A DNA stretch of 64,000 nucleotides from Chryseobacterium daecheongense (GTDB lineage: Bacteria; Bacteroidota; Bacteroidia; Flavobacteriales; Weeksellaceae). The stretch covers positions 2,728,001-2,792,000 of the forward strand of contig CP115858.1 in assembly GCA_027920525.1 (NCBI GenBank), written 5' to 3'. The notes under the pieces were generated by a model. It did no database searches. It worked only from the letters and a program-made list of their open reading frames with translations, and was not told where the DNA came from. The translations under genes and the position numbers were made by a program. Below are positions 6,592-19,234 of the stretch, piece after piece (position 1 is the first letter of the stretch; each line of letters begins with the position of its first letter).

Positions 6592-7425
6592 ATGAAAACA
6601 CTTCTTTACACTCTTCTATTATTTTCCTGCTTTGTTCAGGCTCAAAAAAAACCATCTGATTTCTTCCCTACTCCAAAAACAAAAGTTTTAGTGGTTGGTT
6701 CATTCCATTTTGATTATCCTAATCTGGATGCCCATAAAATCAAAAAACAGGACCAGATCGATGTACTATCTCCTAAAACATCCAAAGAGGTTACCGATCT
6801 GGTAAATTATATTAAGAAGTTCAGGCCAACAAAGATTGCTATTGAAGCTTCACCCGAATGGAACGCCAATCAAAAACTCAAAGAGTATAATGAAGGAAAA
6901 CACCATGATAAAAGAGACGAACGGTATCAGCTTGCCATGAGAATTGCCAATAAACTGAAGATCAATGAACTATTCAGTGTAGACGCCTCTTCCGTATTAG
7001 AAGACCTTACGGAAAAGTTTGGAAAGACTGACTCACTATATTTTAAGAAACTTACAGAGGGATATGATTATAAAAGTGATGACCCCATTTCTCAAAATTT
7101 TACTGATTTCTATAATCATTCAGAAGCCAAAAACTTTAGCTCACTTATGAACACCTTCCAATATCTTAACAGCAAAGAATATCACGAATATGGATATGGC
7201 GCTTATCTGAGTGGAGATTTTAAATTAAGGGATTATGACGGAGCTGATATACTTGCCATGGATTGGTATAGCAGGAATCTGAGAATATTCCGTAATATAC
7301 AGAATATTCCGCATCAAAGTGACGACAGAATTCTAGTAATCATAGGAAACGGACATGCAGCAGTCCTCAGACAACTTTTAACCTGCTCTGCAGAATATGA
7401 ATTCACAGAATTTTCTTCTTTATAA
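6592..7425 (+). CDS. Exported DUF5694 family protein
   Basis: 277 residues with a signal peptide ending near residue 17 (CFVQA-Q). The mature part has the DUF5694 signatures: VLVVGSFHFD (Gly36-Ser37-Phe38-His39-Phe40), KIAIEASPE, and near the C-terminus IGNGHA (Asn253, His255) followed by LRQLL. The GxxHF and GxGHA motifs at the two ends resemble those of the TraB/GumN (Tiki-like) fold, so a metal-dependent hydrolase is possible; this is inference, as no activity is established. It is a single gene between two terminators and convergent with the receptor gene that follows. Confidence 0.8.
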   Translation: MKTLLYTLLLFSCFVQAQKKPSDFFPTPKTKVLVVGSFHFDYPNLDAHKIKKQDQIDVLSPKTSKEVTDLVNYIKKFRPTKIAIEASPEWNANQKLKEYNEGKHHDKRDERYQLAMRIANKLKINELFSVDASSVLEDLTEKFGKTDSLYFKKLTEGYDYKSDDPISQNFTDFYNHSEAKNFSSLMNTFQYLNSKEYHEYGYGAYLSGDFKLRDYDGADILAMDWYSRNLRIFRNIQNIPHQSDDRILVIIGNGHAAVLRQLLTCSAEYEFTEFSSL

Positions 7426-7499: not shown

Positions 7500-10256
7500 T
7501 TAAAACTTAAATTCTACCCTTGCAAACAGAAATCGTCCTCCAATACCATATTGGGAAACCTGTCTGGAGTATACAAACTGATTATCTGCTGTCAGGGAAT
7601 TGATTAGTGGATTTTTGGAAGGCATCACATTGAATATATTATTACTTCCAATGGTTGCAGATATATTTTTACTGAAGTCATAGCCTACTGAAAGATCTGT
7701 TACAAAACGATTATTCAATACAAAGTGTTCCTGTTTTCCTACTACACCATCAAAATTAGCATCCAATACATCAGCGTCGGTTACTTTTCCAAAGAAAGAA
7801 TTCCTCAATAAAATATTAAATCCGGAAACTCTAAGATTATTGGATAGAGTTGCTTTTACACGGGGTACAGCTTCTTCAAAATAAATCCTGTTAGGCTCAG
7901 AAAAGTAACTGTCTATCTGGCTAACTAATTTTGGGGAGGCATGAATATTTCCTATTCTTCTGGTCTGATTCAGATTGAGCCCAAAGTTATTTTCCAGATT
8001 AATTCCTGAACCTAAATTGGATGTCTGGGAAATGGTAAGATCAAGCCCTTTGGTCTGGGAATCTACAGCATTCGCAAAAAAATTGGCGGCACTAGCTCTT
8101 GCAAGGTCAAAAGCATCCTGCAGAATCGCCTGATCCGATCCTTCAGGAAAATCTACACCTCTAGTACCTTTAGGTCTGAAAAACAAATCAGTGAGCACTA
8201 CTCTATCTTTAATTTTAATATAATAAACATCTGCTGTAACCACAAGATTCAAATTTGGAGCTTTCCAAGTAAGTCCTGTACTGTACGACTGAGAGGTTTC
8301 CTGTTTCAGTTTTGGAATCCCAAGCGCCTGTGCAGCCTCGGAATTATTCCTAAAAGTTCCTACCTGGGTAGTATTACCCTGTTGAATTAAGGTTGATGTT
8401 GAGCTATAATAGATCTGGGCTAATGAAGGGGCTCTAAAACCTGTAGAAACAGCACCTCTCCAATTAAAATTATCAGCCAACTTCACATTAGTCGCTAGTT
8501 TATAATTAAAGGTAGATCCAAAGTCTGAATAGTTTTCATAGCGCAAAGCACCTTCTACCAGCCACCAATCCGTTGGTTCCAGCTCCACATCTACATATCC
8601 GGCCACACTATTTCTATTTCCGGAAACAGCATTATCCGGACTAAATCCCGGAAATACCTGGGAACCGGCAGGTCTTGTTACGCCAAAAAAATCAGTCACA
8701 AGCTCATTTTTTGGAGTATTTACGGTCACTACATTTCCATAAATATCATAAGAGGCATAAGAATTCTCGTTACCGGCATTCACCTTATAATTTTCATAAC
8801 GGTATTCCCCTCCAAATGCAATGTTCAGCCCATGCAATACATCATACTTTTTGGAAAAGTCAAGGTTTAGGGTGTTTTGCAAAAACTCAAGTCCACCTGC
8901 ATCAAATCTTCTTGGAGAGTTGTTGACCAATGAAGAATTAAAAGTATTAACAACTCCAAAATTGAAAGTATTCTTTCCAAAAGTGTTACTGAGATCTATA
9001 TTCCAGTCATTCCATTTTCCTTTGATCCCAGCTGCATATGAATAATCATTAATGGTAGACTCAATCTGTGGCAGATATCCGTTGGGTGTTATAAAATTGA
9101 TATTTCTCTCGCTATTAGGCAAACGGAAAAAACCTCCGGCATTCCCCAGCCTGTAGCTATATCCTCCAAAAGAATACACCTTCCAGTCATCATTAATCGG
9201 CATTTCCGAATTATAATAGACCTGTGCTGACTGCAGTTTCGATTGTCCAGCTCTGATACTGAAATCTTTTCGTTGAAGTCCTCTATATGCAAGTTCATCA
9301 TTGGTAACATCCCCTCCTAATAAACCCTGTAAAGTTGAAATGTTATTGGCGTTTGCAATTTTATTCTGTAAATCAGATGAAAAATAATTTACTTTTGTTG
9401 CATATTGTTTAATCGTATTGATAATTTGCTGGCTATTGGAAGTATTATTTATATTCTTATAAAGCCCGTCTATATCTATCCCATCTTGAGCAGCCCTGTA
9501 GTTAATAGCATTATAGGCATTGTATATATCGCCATTCCTCACACCAGCTCGGGAATAAGGATCCCGGTATTGGGTTGATGTGGTAATATTGAAGAAACCC
9601 TGTTTTCCAAGTTTGAATCCATAATTCAGGTCTAAAGAGATGGTTTCTCCATCCAGTCCACCGGAAAAATTGTTGGTAACCGGTGAAGCATATCCTCCCA
9701 AAAATAACTGACCGGATAACCCCAATCTTTTTTTAAGACCTAAATTGACAACTCCTGCAATAGCATCAGATCCGTATTGAGCAGAAGCACCATCCCGAAG
9801 CACTTCAATTTTATCCAGAGCAAAAGCCGGAATAGCATTAAGATCCGTTCCCACCGAACCCCTACCTGGTGTAAGGGTTACATTGATGAGTGAAGACTGA
9901 TGCCTTCTTTTCCCATTAAGTAAAACTAAAACCTGATCGGGACCTAAACCCCTCAACTGTGCAGGATCCACAAAATCCGTCCCGTCATTTACAGTATGCG
10001 ATGTGGAGGAAAAAGAAGGGACAATATAGTTTAGAGCCTGGCTTATATTATTAACCGGGCTTTGTTTCAATATTTTTGAAATGTTAATAACGTCTACCGG
10101 AACCGGAGTATCTGTTAATGATCTACCTGATCCTCTTGAACCGAGAAGAACAACCTCATCGATTTTTTTTGATTTTAGAGTATCAGACTGGGCGAAGTAA
10201 AACGTCGAAATTAAAGTGGCCGAAGCAATGATACTTCTATTTTTAAAATGGCGCAT
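7500..10256 (-). CDS. TonB-dependent outer-membrane receptor under S-box/leader control
   Basis: 918 residues counted from the ATG at 10256. The open frame continues upstream but only to a TTG, whereas MRHFKNRS begins a proper signal peptide ending near FYFAQ. A TonB-box-like stretch (IDEVVLLGSR, about residues 32-41) is followed by a plug domain (LRGLGPDQVLVLLNGKRRH, IEVLRDGASAQYGSDAIAGV) and a 22-strand-type barrel ending in FARVEFKF, an outer-membrane C-terminus with final Phe. It imports a ligand across the outer membrane using TonB energy. The ligand is not shown by the protein itself. The S-box-like RNA and Met/Cys-rich leader frame upstream suggest a sulfur compound such as methionine or a precursor; that is inference. 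Confidence 0.9.
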   Translation of the reverse strand: MRHFKNRSIIASATLISTFYFAQSDTLKSKKIDEVVLLGSRGSGRSLTDTPVPVDVINISKILKQSPVNNISQALNYIVPSFSSTSHTVNDGTDFVDPAQLRGLGPDQVLVLLNGKRRHQSSLINVTLTPGRGSVGTDLNAIPAFALDKIEVLRDGASAQYGSDAIAGVVNLGLKKRLGLSGQLFLGGYASPVTNNFSGGLDGETISLDLNYGFKLGKQGFFNITTSTQYRDPYSRAGVRNGDIYNAYNAINYRAAQDGIDIDGLYKNINNTSNSQQIINTIKQYATKVNYFSSDLQNKIANANNISTLQGLLGGDVTNDELAYRGLQRKDFSIRAGQSKLQSAQVYYNSEMPINDDWKVYSFGGYSYRLGNAGGFFRLPNSERNINFITPNGYLPQIESTINDYSYAAGIKGKWNDWNIDLSNTFGKNTFNFGVVNTFNSSLVNNSPRRFDAGGLEFLQNTLNLDFSKKYDVLHGLNIAFGGEYRYENYKVNAGNENSYASYDIYGNVVTVNTPKNELVTDFFGVTRPAGSQVFPGFSPDNAVSGNRNSVAGYVDVELEPTDWWLVEGALRYENYSDFGSTFNYKLATNVKLADNFNWRGAVSTGFRAPSLAQIYYSSTSTLIQQGNTTQVGTFRNNSEAAQALGIPKLKQETSQSYSTGLTWKAPNLNLVVTADVYYIKIKDRVVLTDLFFRPKGTRGVDFPEGSDQAILQDAFDLARASAANFFANAVDSQTKGLDLTISQTSNLGSGINLENNFGLNLNQTRRIGNIHASPKLVSQIDSYFSEPNRIYFEEAVPRVKATLSNNLRVSGFNILLRNSFFGKVTDADVLDANFDGVVGKQEHFVLNNRFVTDLSVGYDFSKNISATIGSNNIFNVMPSKNPLINSLTADNQFVYSRQVSQYGIGGRFLFARVEFKF

Positions 10257-10292
10257 GTGTTTTATTTTTAAATTTTTATTATAATTTTTTTG

Positions 10293-10314
10293 TTTGCTTA
10301 AAATTTTAAGCAAA
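10293..10314 (-). repeat. 22-bp perfect palindrome in the receptor leader
   Basis: TTTGCTTAAAA/TTTTAAGCAAA is exactly self-complementary and lies 37-58 bases upstream of the receptor ATG. Two further small hairpins sit between it and the leader-peptide stop: CCTTG/CAAGG at 10328-10343 and GGTTT/AAACC at 10364-10386. No T run follows on the transcribed strand, so it is not a terminator. It could be an operator or part of a switch that controls translation. Confidence 0.5.
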
Positions 10315-10391
10315 AAGTATCCTGTAACCTTGAAAACACAAGGCTAAAAGAAAAATGATAAACGGTTTTATTAGTTAATAGAAACCAGAGG

Positions 10392-10490
10392 CTAAGAACA
10401 ACAACACATACACATCACGAAATGCCATGAGTGATCACCAGCATACAGAAGCTTTGCTTCGATATCTGCCGGGCAAAAAGTCAAATTCAT
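10392..10490 (-). CDS. Putative Met/Cys-rich leader peptide (32 aa)
   Basis: An ATG at 10490 opens a 32-codon frame ending at TAG (10392-10394). The peptide begins MNLTFCPAD and ends HFVMCMCCCS. The last seven codons are ATG TGT ATG TGT TGT TGT TCT, so four Cys and two Met lie directly before the stop. It sits between the S-box-like RNA and the receptor gene, 135 bases before the receptor start. Clustered Cys codons just before a stop are the known design of amino-acid-sensing leader peptides in other phyla. Here I infer that slow decoding of Cys or Met codons alters folding of the following RNA. No domain match is expected at this length. The peptide may have no function beyond its translation. 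Confidence 0.6.
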   Translation of the reverse strand: MNLTFCPADIEAKLLYAGDHSWHFVMCMCCCS

Positions 10491-10577
10491 TGTGCTGTAA
10501 TTTTCCCTGTTCTTAAACATTGGTTTTAAATTTTAAACAAAAATTGTAAGATGGGAATGAATAGAAAAACATTTTTT

Positions 10578-10660
10578 CCGGAGCTTGCCGGCTTATCTAT
10601 TTCAGCACCTTGCTTGTTTTGCAGGTTGCTATCCCATCTATGAGATTCTTGATAATTGTG
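10578..10660 (-). promoter_or_regulatory. S-box (SAM-I clan) riboswitch-like RNA
   Basis: Read on the minus strand it has the S-box core in the right order. First TTATCAAGAA, then a short P2 stem (ATCTC/GGGAT), then AGCAACC, a P3 stem (CCTGC/GCAAGG with one bulged A), GGTGCT-AA, and GATAA closing P1 against TTATC. A hairpin CCGG-CAAGCT-CCGG follows. It lacks the long kinked P2 and the P4 arm of classical SAM-I elements, so it is a compact variant. SAM-sensing RNAs of this clan switch off methionine and sulfur genes when SAM is plentiful. No T-run terminator follows, so control may be translational or act on the leader frame downstream. Confidence 0.7.
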
Positions 10661-10663
10661 AGG

Positions 10664-10707
10664 CAAAGATATAACTATTTTACAAATAAAAAAATAATTT
10701 GTAAAAT
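10664..10707 (-). promoter_or_regulatory. Promoter -7 box and inverted-repeat operator of the receptor transcript
   Basis: TATCTTTG on the minus strand (10664-10671) fits the Bacteroidota -7 consensus TAnnTTTG and would start RNA near 10657, at the first base of the riboswitch. Behind it lies a perfect 11-bp inverted repeat, ATTTTACAAAT (10677-10687) and ATTTGTAAAAT (10697-10707), with a 9-base spacer. It covers the position of the -33 element, where no TTG is seen. A repressor or activator site is likely. The remaining 150 bases up to the next gene (10708-10859) are AT-rich, and I see nothing definite in them. Confidence 0.6.
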
Positions 10708-13181: not shown

Positions 13182-13898
13182 TTAAAAATCGATGGTGTGA
13201 AATCTCCAGTCCAGAGTATCGACCAAAGTCAGCTGATTGGTATTCACAGGAAGATCTGTAATTATTTTCAGGCTCAGATGTGCCATCATACTTCCTATTA
13301 TTCCGGGTAATGATCCCAGAACACCTAAACTATCACAATCCGGGGTATCTTCATCCACCGGTGGTTCAGGAAAAAGATCCCTCAGGTTTTTACTCTCTCT
13401 GTAATTAAATACTGCCACCTGACCGGAAAAGCCCAGAATACTTCCATAAACCACCGGTTTTTTTAGTCTCACACAAGCATCATTAATTAAATACCTTGTA
13501 GAAAAGTTATCTGATCCGTCTACAATCAGGTCATATGTGGAAATTATCCTTTCAATATTTGAAAGATCTATCTTTTCATCAATGGGAATAATAGTAATAT
13601 GCCTGTTAAGTGCTTCAACAAATTGTACTGCGCTGGACACTTTGGATATCCCGACACTTTTTTCATTATGAATAATCTGCCTGTTCAGATTATGAAGCTC
13701 TACTTTATCAAAGTCTGCGATCCCTAAAATGCCAACTCCTGCCGCTGCCAAATATTGAATAACAGGACTCCCCAATCCACCAGCCCCCACAACAAGCACT
13801 TTCGCATTAAGTATTTTTCGTTGCCCTGAAGTACCAATCTCATCAATAAAAATTTGACGGCTGTATCTGGAAAACATTTCTTCGCTATTCATGATCAT
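13182..13898 (-). CDS. thiF: ThiF/MoeB family adenylyltransferase (thiamine operon)
   Basis: Activates the C-terminal Gly-Gly of the sulfur carrier ThiS by adenylation. The nucleotide-binding loop GAGGLGS (residues 38-44), the NRQ motif and DGSDNFSTR are all present. A Cys stands at residue 188 in DCDSLGVLGS. The zinc CxxC pairs of many ThiF/MoeB proteins are absent: the first would sit where LRDLFPEPP is. The protein ends without a rhodanese domain. I place the start at the ATG at 13898, four bases after the thiH stop; the open frame reaches back to a GTG at 13913, and another ATG is at 13892. It is the last gene of the thi operon. Because MoeB-type proteins look alike, the name rests partly on position. 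Confidence 0.85.
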   Translation of the reverse strand: MIMNSEEMFSRYSRQIFIDEIGTSGQRKILNAKVLVVGAGGLGSPVIQYLAAAGVGILGIADFDKVELHNLNRQIIHNEKSVGISKVSSAVQFVEALNRHITIIPIDEKIDLSNIERIISTYDLIVDGSDNFSTRYLINDACVRLKKPVVYGSILGFSGQVAVFNYRESKNLRDLFPEPPVDEDTPDCDSLGVLGSLPGIIGSMMAHLSLKIITDLPVNTNQLTLVDTLDWRFHTIDF

Positions 13899-13902
13899 TC
13901 TA

Positions 13903-15021
13903 TTAAAAACCACTGTACACAGAATCCCAATCCTTCATAACAGGATCATATCCCGCATTCCTGATCACATTTTTTATATCCTGCATGCTTCTTTCATCAC
14001 TGGTTTCAAATTGTTCCAACGATTGAGGATCTACAGCATAGCCTCCCGGATTAGTCTTAGATCCGGCACTCATGGAAGTGGCTCCAAGAGATACAATATG
14101 ATTTCTGAAATTTTCATTCTCCCTGGTAGAAATGGAAATTTCAAGATCTTCATTCCATATCCGGTAAGCACAAATGAGTTGCAAAAGCTCTTTATCTTCC
14201 ATAATGAAGTTGGGTTCTATGATTCCCTCAGCGGGCCGTAATCTCGGAAATGATACGGAAAATTTACTTTTCCAATATTGCTTTTGCAGGTAATCAATGT
14301 GGGCTGCATTGAAGAAACTATCGACTCTCCAATCTTCCAATCCTAATAAAACACCTAACCCCATTTTATGGATCCCTGCTCTTCCTATTCGGTCAGGTGT
14401 TTCCAGACGAAAATTAAAATTTGATTTTTTACCTTTCGGATGATACTGCTTATACACTTCCTGATGATAAGTCTCCTGATACACAAGGATTGAATGAACT
14501 CCTTCCTGATGGAGTAATCGGTATTCATCTTCTGACAATGGCTGTACTTCGATAGAAATGTTGGCAAAATGGGATTTTAATAACCGAACAGCATTCAGAA
14601 AGTAGGCAATCCCTACGGTCTTATTCGCTTCACCGCTTACCAGCAATATATGATTTACTCCCATCGCCTTCAGAACCGTTGCTTCTATCATAATCTCAGT
14701 ATCGGAAAGTGTTTTTCTTTTCAGTTTATTGTCTAAGCTAAAACCACAATAGGTACAAATGTTCTGACATTCGTTACTAAGGTATAAAGGTGCATAAAGC
14801 TGGATTACTTTGCCAAAACGTTTTTGGGTAATCGCTCTCGCCATGCCAGCCATCACTTCTAATTTCGGAGCCGCAGCCATTGAAATAAGATTAAGGAAAT
14901 CATCCAATGTTTTCTGCTTCTTCTGAAGGCTGTATTCTACATCGGATAAAGTGACATTTTCCAGTTTTTGTTTAATATCATTCCACTCATAGGATGTGAA
15001 AACCTCCTCAAAATTTTTCAT
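13903..15021 (-). CDS. thiH: 2-iminoacetate synthase (radical SAM, thiamine thiazole pathway)
   Basis: Cleaves tyrosine to dehydroglycine (2-iminoacetate) and p-cresol, supplying the glycine-derived part of the thiazole ring. The radical-SAM cluster motif is CxxxCxxC with Cys85, Cys89 and Cys92 (NECQNICTYCGFS). Other ThiH signatures are LVSGEANKTVG, VYQETYHQEVYKQYHPKGKKS and the C-terminal MSAGSKTNPGGY. With 372 residues it has the usual length. It lies 11 bases after thiG. The tyrosine-dependent enzyme fits an anaerobe-compatible route, as opposed to the glycine oxidase (ThiO) route. Confidence 0.95.
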   Translation of the reverse strand: MKNFEEVFTSYEWNDIKQKLENVTLSDVEYSLQKKQKTLDDFLNLISMAAAPKLEVMAGMARAITQKRFGKVIQLYAPLYLSNECQNICTYCGFSLDNKLKRKTLSDTEIMIEATVLKAMGVNHILLVSGEANKTVGIAYFLNAVRLLKSHFANISIEVQPLSEDEYRLLHQEGVHSILVYQETYHQEVYKQYHPKGKKSNFNFRLETPDRIGRAGIHKMGLGVLLGLEDWRVDSFFNAAHIDYLQKQYWKSKFSVSFPRLRPAEGIIEPNFIMEDKELLQLICAYRIWNEDLEISISTRENENFRNHIVSLGATSMSAGSKTNPGGYAVDPQSLEQFETSDERSMQDIKNVIRNAGYDPVMKDWDSVYSGF

Positions 15022-15032
15022 TCTAATACGAT

Positions 15033-15806
15033 TTATTCAAATAAAAATGAAGTCAAGGGGCTTGATGCCTCAGCATGGGAACTGATCGGGCCCAGTCCGG
15101 CTTCGTAAGCTCTTCTTCCTGCAATAATCCCTTCCTTAAATGCAATTGCCATACTGATCGGATCCTTTGCCACGGCTATAGCAGTATTCACCAACACGGC
15201 ATCAGCACCAATTTCCATGGCCTTTGCCGCATCAGATGGGGCTCCTATTCCTGCATCAACTACCACAGGAACGTTGCTCTGGCTAATGATAATTTCCAGG
15301 AAATCCAACGTCCGAAGACCTTTGTTCGTTCCGATAGGGGCTCCCAATGGCATAACCACTGCTGTCCCTGCGTCTTCTAACCGTTTGCATAAAACGGGAT
15401 CAGCATGAATGTAAGGCATTACAATAAACCCAAGCTTCGCAAGTTCTTCCGTTGCATATAATGTTTCTATAGGATCCGGCAGTAAATATTTAGGGTCCGG
15501 ATGTATTTCCAGTTTCACCCAGTTTGTTTCTAACGCTTCTCTGGCCAATTGCGCAGCCAGTACTGCTTCTTTGGCAGTACGGGCTCCGGAGGTGTTAGGC
15601 AGAAGATGGGTATTGGTGGGCTGCAGTGCCGTGAGAATACCGTCATCCTTAGATTGAGCATCAATTCTTTTCAGTGCCATTGTCACCATATTGCTTTCTG
15701 ATGCAATAATAGATTGTGTCATTTCTGCCAGATTTCCGAATTTACCCGTTCCCAGAAATAGCCTTGATTCGAAATTTCTTCCTGCTATTGTTAGTATTTG
15801 ATTCAT
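15033..15806 (-). CDS. thiG: Thiazole synthase
   Basis: Builds the thiazole phosphate ring from deoxyxylulose 5-phosphate, dehydroglycine and ThiS-thiocarboxylate. 257 residues forming a TIM barrel. Typical stretches are [41 protein letters not shown] (with the Lys that forms the Schiff base), [13 protein letters not shown] and [29 protein letters not shown]. Its start overlaps the thiE stop by four bases, so the two are probably translationally coupled. Confidence 0.97.
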
Positions 15807-16423
15807 TTGAAAGATTTTATAAATTCATTAACGACAGACGGCCTGCCTGTAATTTGTCCGGAGACAGCAACTCCATGGATTCCAATTTTCTGTAATAATT
15901 CTACATCTTCAAGACGTACACCTCCAATTGCATAGATTGCAGGAATTTTAACCGATCTTTTTTCTAAATCCCGGATCAGTTGCTGATACCCTTCAAAGCC
16001 CAGTACCGGACTTAATTTCTCCTTTGTCGGTGTATACCGCAATGGCCCCAAACCGATATAATCACAAGATTCATCAATTCTTTGCAGGACGTCCTCTAAT
16101 GTATTGGCTGTTCCCCCGATTATTTTTTCAGGACCCAGAATCTGTCTTGCCTCAGTGATTGTACCATCATCTAATCCTAAATGTACACCATCAGCATCTA
16201 CGAGTTCTGCCAAATGTATGTGATCATTAATAATACATATTGCCCCGTATTCGGTACATTGTAATTTTGATTTTTCACACAATTCAAAAAGCTCTTTCCC
16301 AGGCGCGTTTTTCCAACGAACCTGCACCCACTTTACACCGGCGTCCAGAGCCCTGTAAATATTCAATTCCTGTTCTTCTTTCGTATTTCCCTGGGAAATA
16401 TATTGTAATTTTTCTTTGACCAA
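15803..16423 (-). CDS. thiE: Thiamine phosphate synthase
   Basis: Joins hydroxymethylpyrimidine diphosphate and thiazole phosphate to give thiamine phosphate. 206 residues with the family motifs [28 protein letters not shown], the loop [15 protein letters not shown] and IYAIGGV. The start is a TTG at 16423: no ATG exists near the expected N-terminus ([12 protein letters not shown]), and the preceding gene stops only three bases before. It lies between the TenI-like gene and thiG in a tightly packed operon. Confidence 0.95.
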
Positions 16424-19071: not shown

Positions 19072-19151
19072 TCCAAGATTTTTGTTATAAATCACTTTAG
19101 GAATGGCTATAATTGTACAATAGAAATGTACAGCAAAAAGTCATCTCACTT

Positions 19152-19224
19152 TTCCCTACGCTGGTATGATCCAGATCAGGTTCAAAGGGTAAAGTCTCAG
19201 TCTGCTTGTGAACAGACACCCCTA
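19152..19224 (-). promoter_or_regulatory. TPP riboswitch (THI element)
   Basis: On the minus strand the conserved parts follow in order: AGGGGTG, CTGAGA, ACCCTTTGAACCTGATCTGG, and TACCAGCGTAGGGAA closing P1. A short variable arm (GTCTGTTCACAAGCAGAC) takes the place of P3a. It senses thiamine diphosphate and represses the seven downstream thi genes, probably by masking the thiS start, as no strong terminator follows. Confidence 0.97.
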
Positions 19225-19234
19225 AAGTATGGGA

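Follow-up and report, generated by a model that had tools for sequence, protein, structure and literature searches.

A putative two-input leader RNA precedes the gene for a TonB-dependent receptor in the window, the 64,000-nucleotide stretch of the Chryseobacterium daecheongense contig CP115858.1 analysed here. We consider it likely, with a probability of roughly two in three, that this RNA controls the receptor through a SAM-I/IV riboswitch that gates the start of a leader frame and through a tail of that frame that reads Cys-tRNA. On the minus strand the order of elements is a TAnnTTTG box, a SAM-clan aptamer, a frame ending in Met and Cys codons, small hairpins and the receptor gene (Table 1). 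Two distinct sensor elements are thereby found in one leader before one gene, the aptamer in 52 of 52 receptor orthologues and the frame in 36 of 36 named loci. Comparison among relatives brings out the aptamer, the constrained frame, its conserved Cys tail, the linkage of these elements and their recurrence before sulfur genes.

Table 1. Features of the leader and of the receptor gene, in minus-strand order; positions are those of the window.
Feature	Position	Strand	Details
Inverted repeat, earlier proposed as an operator	10678..10706	-	arms 10706-10697 / 10687-10678
Promoter-like -7 box TATCTTTG (TAnnTTTG)	10664..10671	-	transcription start expected near 10659
SAM-I/IV riboswitch aptamer (RF01725)	10562..10660	-	cmscan 56.4 bits, E 1.3e-6
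5' arms of predicted alternative fold	10632..10651	-	CAAGAAU 10651-10645, AGAUGGGA 10639-10632
3' arms of predicted alternative fold	10538..10556	-	UCCCAUCU 10556-10549, AUUUUUG 10544-10538
Leader peptide frame, 42 codons + stop, MFKNRENYSTMNLTFCPADIEAKLLYAGDHSWHFVMCMCCCS	10392..10520	-	dN/dS 0.30, 45 types
Met-Cys-Met-Cys-Cys-Cys codons of leader	10398..10415	-	column conservation in 45 types
Hairpin TAGCCTTG-TGTTTT-CAAGGTTA	10325..10346	-	between leader and receptor
Second small A/T-rich hairpin TTTGCTTAAAATTTTAAGCAAA	10293..10314	-	fold; counterparts in L061, L062, L093
TonB-dependent receptor, 918 residues	7500..10256	-	Pfam TonB_dep_Rec_b-barrel + Plug; ORF list; ATG at 10256

The preliminary description had seen an S-box-like RNA upstream of the receptor and had called for a search with SAM-clan covariance models. 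This search returned a match to RF01725 that covers model positions 1-99 of 99 and exceeds the curated cut-off of 41.1 bits. No further RF01725 match turned up in the 4.86 Mb genome, and when the whole window was run through cmscan this was one of two matches above curated cut-offs (TPP and SAM-I/IV). In the cmscan alignment P2 has no internal loop, and one model position is deleted at the base of P2; a P2 without the internal loop of SAM-I and SAM-IV is the criterion given for SAM-I/IV in the accessible text of Weinberg 2010 (PMC2864571). The SAM-clan assignment thus stands and the class is SAM-I/IV, not the classical S-box. By covariance model and alignment the RNA is a SAM-I/IV riboswitch aptamer, which would bind SAM. 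We also considered the spermidine variant of the SAM-I aptamer, whose changes are placed in J1/2 and the P3 internal loop by the accessible part of PMC10853860, and set it aside on sequence grounds: both stretches are invariant over 29 aligned rows and follow the SAM-I/IV consensus.

The second element, the Met/Cys frame, was compared in 142 fetched leader copies, many of them redundant, which represent 50 distinct leader frames. All 45 Chryseobacterium types used begin ATG-TTT-AAR, so the start codon in the window is the ATG at 10520. The frame and its Met/Cys tail, ending MCMCCCS-stop with the stop codon at 10394-10392, are therefore as first described, whereas the start at 10489 and the length of 32 residues are replaced by 10520 and 42. 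The cross-species alignment that the preliminary description had asked for revealed conservation of both the frame and its Cys codons. Counted by an NG86-type procedure over the 45 types, dN/dS falls from the overall value in Table 1 to 0.06 over the last eight codons; the L025/L040/L113 type, with its broken N-terminus, and the four Elizabethkingia types were left out of this count. Stops occur in the leader's own frame in none of the 45 sequences, compared with 41 and 45 of 45 in the two shifted frames. For 23 of the 45 sequences, pN/pS is 0.415 in frame; the shifted frames give 0.915 and 1.034, and 60 column shuffles a mean of 0.856 with a minimum of 0.469. Both Met columns are occupied by Met in 45 of 45 types and the last three Cys columns by Cys in 44, 45 and 45, encoded interchangeably by TGT or TGC. 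Between the two Met stands Arg (n = 33), Cys (n = 10), His (n = 1) or Gly (n = 1). By these measures the Met/Cys frame is under coding constraint, strongest at its tail. L015 departs at the first of these three Cys, where it carries Gly, and at one locus (L025/L113) the broken leader N-terminus lies next to a broken receptor. In the four Elizabethkingia types the body is unrelated and hydrophobic, and the tails read MHSMCCCY (two types), MHSMYCCC and MHSMCCCL. For one Elizabethkingia leader (L049), Pfam matches the body to MauE below threshold (E 0.0033); it looks as though part of a membrane protein had become a leader body to which a Cys tail was added.

Both elements stay with the receptor among relatives. 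RF01725 matched in 100 of 296 genomes of the family at E 0.001 (96 above the cut-off) and in 21 of 76 sampled Chryseobacterium genomes; each of those 21 genus loci has a similar frame about 100 bases past the aptamer core. Among the matches listed for the 296 family genomes, receptor orthologues of at least 66% identity number 52 (48 from Chryseobacterium, four from Elizabethkingia), and in all 52 listed the aptamer lies 287-547 bases upstream on the same strand. This comparison of aptamer and receptor took in the 52 places, the RF01725 places of both genera that had been listed (G099 excepted) and two from elsewhere. Of 61 named loci, the 36 whose receptors reach 66% identity all have both the aptamer core and a frame ending in Cys (in L113 with a broken leader N-terminus). 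A pattern search found no core in the 25 remaining, more distant relatives of the receptor; a single one of these, L127, has a Cys-Cys-Cys frame, ending Gly-Cys-Cys-Cys-Gln and lacking a Met start. In ten of the 25, cmscan listed tRNAs and no SAM-clan RNA, so their context offers no clue to the substrate. Conversely, a Cys-Cys-Cys-ending frame follows within 550 bases after none of the 17 SAM-I/IV aptamers read that precede other genes in the family. On these counts the pairing of aptamer and frame at the receptor is more than chance. Other Cys-run leaders in the family were sought with ATGTGYTGYTGYNNNTAR, which matched in 72 of 296 genomes; 27 of the places away from the receptor were loaded, and the 24 of these that were judged lie mostly inside or antisense to genes by eye and were taken as chance; the distance filter excluded the other three, L200, L201 and L205.

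Transcription probably begins at the very start of the aptamer. The TAnnTTTG box is present at the matching place, within about three bases, in all 50 leader types (as TATATTTG in Elizabethkingia), and no second TAnnTTTG was found within the leader in any of 29 aligned sequences. TAnnTTTG at -12 to -5 is the consensus given for Flavobacterium psychrophilum in the available text of PMC9723704. A transcription start downstream of both elements, one of three outcomes that the preliminary description had set against its own reading, was not seen, the conserved promoter-like box lying directly upstream of the aptamer. With the SAM-clan match and the conserved frame and Cys codons added, none of the three was encountered. 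The proposed inverted-repeat operator fared differently. The repeat is perfect in the window, has one mismatch in the 99%-identical L075 and is shorter in L061 (by eye); it was not seen by eye in the upstream sequences of the other relatives compared, and the operator was rejected since the repeat is not conserved. A sigma-70 scan reads the repeat on both strands as a promoter-like site. It probably lies outside the system.

How the two elements might be joined is suggested by predicted folds. In the unforced minimum-energy fold, pairs between AGAUGGGA and UCCCAUCU and between CAAGAAU and AUUUUUG break the aptamer stems P1 and P2, and the RNAalifold consensus of 29 rows takes the alternative fold likewise; the 3' arms are mostly invariant in the same alignment. 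Once freed, these 3' arms should, by the same prediction, form pairs on and about the start codon of the leader. With the aptamer forced, the mean unpaired probability around the start drops from 0.52 to 0.29 (33 sequences) and that of the start codon alone from 0.47 to 0.30, in a calculation that ignores pseudoknots and co-transcriptional folding. The change is not uniform: for the region around the start, L021 shows an increase and L022, L067 and L080 a decrease of less than 0.05, and when the start codon is taken by itself L024, L062 and L138 show an increase. Among the four Elizabethkingia sequences, the unforced fold breaks the aptamer in two, with CAAGAACUUC:GAGUUCUUG pairing instead, and keeps aptamer P2 in the other two.

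We propose that the first sensor is the SAM-I/IV riboswitch at the very 5' end of the transcript. When SAM is scarce, the alternative helix would destroy the aptamer and leave the leader start codon more open; when SAM is bound, the released strand would pair around the start codon and shut the frame. The second sensor would come into play as ribosomes reach Met-(Arg/Cys)-Met-Cys-Cys-Cys just before the stop, where a shortage of Cys-tRNA would make them stall. A stalled ribosome would allow the receptor message to be completed or used, and a leader left untranslated or finished normally would give low receptor output, probably via Rho or message decay, so that output would be highest when SAM and cysteine are both low. 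Ligand binding, the start-codon switch, stalling, the sign of the response, the downstream step and the receptor substrate are what we infer here. If the gate is truly nested, the riboswitch controls leader initiation and the codon sensor is read only at low SAM.

Rho or message decay is proposed because no intrinsic terminator was found in the window leader by a terminator scan, the region holding only hairpins without an adjoining T-run. A classical terminator/antiterminator attenuator was rejected for the window, where no terminator-like site was seen. Three small hairpins had been described between leader and receptor; the two in Table 1 were confirmed and the third was not. The one nearer the leader has a counterpart in 37 of 50 leader types, with compensatory changes in its arms (GTAACCTT/AAGGTTAC, GCGACCTG/CAGGTTGC and GTAACCTC/GAGGTTAC); the search missed it in 13 types, all four Elizabethkingia types included. 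The counterparts of the second hairpin are in the window's close clade, and no strong consensus structure emerged when the post-leader region was folded with RNAalifold. In five types (L008, L010, L012, L014 and L066) a repeat of about 244 bases lies between leader and hairpin, which means that downstream coupling tolerates distance or is broken there. The Cys tail is intact in all five, which argues against a mechanism that depends on tight spacing and would favour Rho or decay. The repeat has 16-53 matches per genome, partial ones counted, in six of seven genomes searched, and no match in the window's genome; by eye the repeat (also L291:1056-1299) has GGATCA/TGATCC ends and an AGACTT duplication.

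The combination of SAM riboswitch and Met/Cys leader recurs elsewhere in the phylum. When 395 genomes were scanned for Met-x-Met-Cys-Cys-Cys with nGn as the middle codon, 30 of them gave 31 places, compared with one match for the reversed control pattern. Ten of the 31 precede receptor, O-acetylhomoserine (OAH) sulfhydrylase or sulfurtransferase genes, six are poly-Cys frames before PhyH-type genes and one is without a locus; the remaining 14 were taken as chance or unclear. MCMCCC was found in 8 of 151 genomes of a further family of the same class and in 11 of 92 genomes of a family of another class. In the same-class family the order is SAM-I riboswitch, leader, OAH sulfhydrylase (L259, L260, L277, L278, L279 and L281), and in the other class it is leader, SAM-I riboswitch, OAH sulfhydrylase (L270, L272, L273, L285, L286 and L287), with more room between the elements and, at least in L285, another frame between them. 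The SAM-I matches at these loci score 72-82 bits against a cut-off of 44.4. Four further leaders of the other-class family precede a sulfurtransferase gene without a riboswitch (L267, L268, L283 and L284). Of these enzymes NCBIfam names two as OAH sulfhydrylase (L259, L272) and one as sulfurtransferase (L267); at the other loci the enzymes were identified by visibly similar N-termini. L280 and L282 of the same-class family and L288 of the other class have the MCMCCC pattern without a SAM riboswitch, and that of L288 is probably a chance match; the leader of L280 precedes an AhpC/TSA gene and that of L282 a SusC/RagA-type TonB receptor.

In all six leader-first loci the frame is followed by GCCCTCTG...CAG..GGGC-TTTT, a terminator-like hairpin with a T-run that starts 40-45 bases past the stop. 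CAGAGGG-type letters directly after the stop can pair with CCCTCTG, the 5' arm of this hairpin, in all six (there was no shuffled control), and the same segment can pair with codons before the Cys run, clearly in four loci and weakly in two. Judged from these pairings, the leader-first loci have the layout of a classical attenuator. A terminator scan that allows no bulge listed none in L272, and none in L259. In Chryseobacterium, a related frame, RMC(M/V)CC, separates a sulfite-reductase stretch from a different TonB receptor downstream at 30 of 30 loci read, the best 30 of 45 genomes and including the window's own; the reductase was recognised by the motif GCPNGCGR and is named by NCBIfam in L005. 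Because the pairing of riboswitch and leader recurs before sulfur genes of distant relatives, two-input control looks real, and the idea of a dual sensor advanced in the preliminary description gains in strength. We suggest more tentatively, at somewhat less than even odds, that a SAM-clan riboswitch and Met/Cys leader form a recurrent gate on sulfur acquisition in Bacteroidota, in at least three architectures, the nested one in Chryseobacterium and Elizabethkingia.

The same elements could be independent controls in series, with the riboswitch acting on the whole message and the leader serving as a separate Cys attenuator whose start codon is not gated. The leader-first order of the other class speaks for this: in that arrangement, local pairing of the kind proposed here could not place the leader under the riboswitch's control. 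In Chryseobacterium, however, the freed strand lies beside the leader start, which it would cover in most sequences according to the predicted folds, and the window has no terminator-like site after the aptamer; we regard serial control as rather unlikely. Far less credence is due to a frame that is a chance or passenger ORF beside a riboswitch that alone matters. The aptamer is indeed better conserved than the frame at base level, but the coding constraint, the conserved tail, the recurrence and the lack of such a frame at the 17 other SAM-I/IV aptamers make this reading very improbable.

Two further alternatives accept the frame as functional and dispute what its tail does. Nascent-peptide arrest, or a role as a small protein, in which the Cys codons are not hungry codons, would account for the S-D-H-E and F-S-C-H residues upstream of the tail, which are also well conserved in Chryseobacterium leaders; yet Elizabethkingia has a different body, the other leaders have unrelated ones, and only the Met/Cys tail recurs, so we hold this to be unlikely. 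The tail might instead sense a metal such as Cu(I), or redox state, by analogy with CruR of Bordetella, an upstream frame that controls a TonB-dependent transporter and for which the accessible text of PMC9973294 reports action through Rho. A Met/Cys-rich tail before a TonB receptor and the hydrophobic Elizabethkingia leader would fit such a sensor. CruR is a metal-sensing protein, whereas neither of two Chryseobacterium leaders tried matches a Pfam or NCBIfam family, and the same tail stands before OAH sulfhydrylase and sulfurtransferase genes, paired with SAM riboswitches; metal or redox sensing is accordingly more doubtful still than peptide arrest. The nested reading, with SAM gating the leader start and Cys-tRNA read at the tail, is the one we prefer.

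The leaders of Salmonella mgtA and mgtCBR combine a Mg2+-sensing RNA with a proline-codon leader peptide. The present leader resembles them in joining a sensing RNA and a codon-run leader peptide before one transporter gene and differs in ligand and amino acid, a SAM aptamer and Cys/Met codons reporting on connected sulfur pools. No description of a SAM riboswitch joined to a cysteine leader was found in the open-licence literature (titles and starts of abstracts, with most subscription papers outside), in agreement with the earlier statement that no such system was known. The parts are each known in kind; what appears new is their stacking, the recurrence of the stack and its nesting.

Compared with the RF01725 family as presented in the accessible text of PMC2864571, the aptamer is alike in its full-length match above the cut-off and its P2 without an internal loop, and it differs in that a leader frame, not a structural gene, adjoins it. 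The Cys leaders of Actinobacteria (Seliverstov 2005, PMC1262725) likewise have a Cys run near the stop, precede sulfur genes and show no obvious terminator; they belong to another phylum and to cys operons and cbs, and the available part of that report notes no riboswitch in the leader. In Rhodobacterales, uORFC-8-2 before cysS (PMC8632094) is also a tandem-Cys upstream frame and a proposed ribosome-mediated attenuator, with two Cys codons and a U run after the last stem as its own features; its available description mentions no SAM riboswitch. Attenuation by leader peptides has left clues before amino-acid biosynthesis operons of Flavobacterium psychrophilum, of the same phylum, and the accessible text (PMC9723704) names neither a Cys leader nor a joined riboswitch among them. 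Tandem riboswitches such as SAM-I plus AdoCbl before metE (PMC9481103, PMC2258182) share the use of two OFF-type sensors in a NOR-like gate, whereas the second sensor here is a translated leader and not an aptamer; as far as the excerpted review goes, tandem domains were counted only without an intervening ORF. The two-input RNA leaders in that review join ligand aptamers, and the present one would join a metabolite aptamer to a codon-reading sensor. A single message would then report on SAM and on charged Cys-tRNA, the two ends of sulfur metabolism. Since the linkage holds in two genera and recurs with another gene in two lineages, the proposal is directly testable. It further suggests attenuation by runs of Cys codons in a phylum for which we found little of the kind described.

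For the receptor itself the proposal offers a handle on an outer-membrane protein, predicting a sulfur-containing ligand. Its best PDB and NCBIfam matches are weak and are siderophore receptors, far under the curated NCBIfam cut-offs. The next gene past the receptor (6592-7425) is on the opposite strand in the ORF list. A receptor paralogue in the same genome (58%) has no leader by eye, and no second RF01725 match was found in the genome.

The genome carries a second Met/Cys leader, MTQPFYRQKQTKKQNHSILGKRMCMCMCMCC, at G000:C1:954710 (L242, L290), between a frame with the sulfite-reductase motif and a TonB receptor; L242 gave no Rfam match. Short frames ending MRMCCCC or in longer Cys runs (up to nine) stand immediately ahead of a PhyH-type gene (Pfam run on L254) in six genomes of the class, at L254, L255, L256, L257, L258 and L261. 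Elsewhere in the window, the TPP riboswitch (19136-19233, minus strand) scores 77.8 bits, above its curated cut-off, and frames at 13182-16423 on the same strand resemble thiamine biosynthesis genes by eye.
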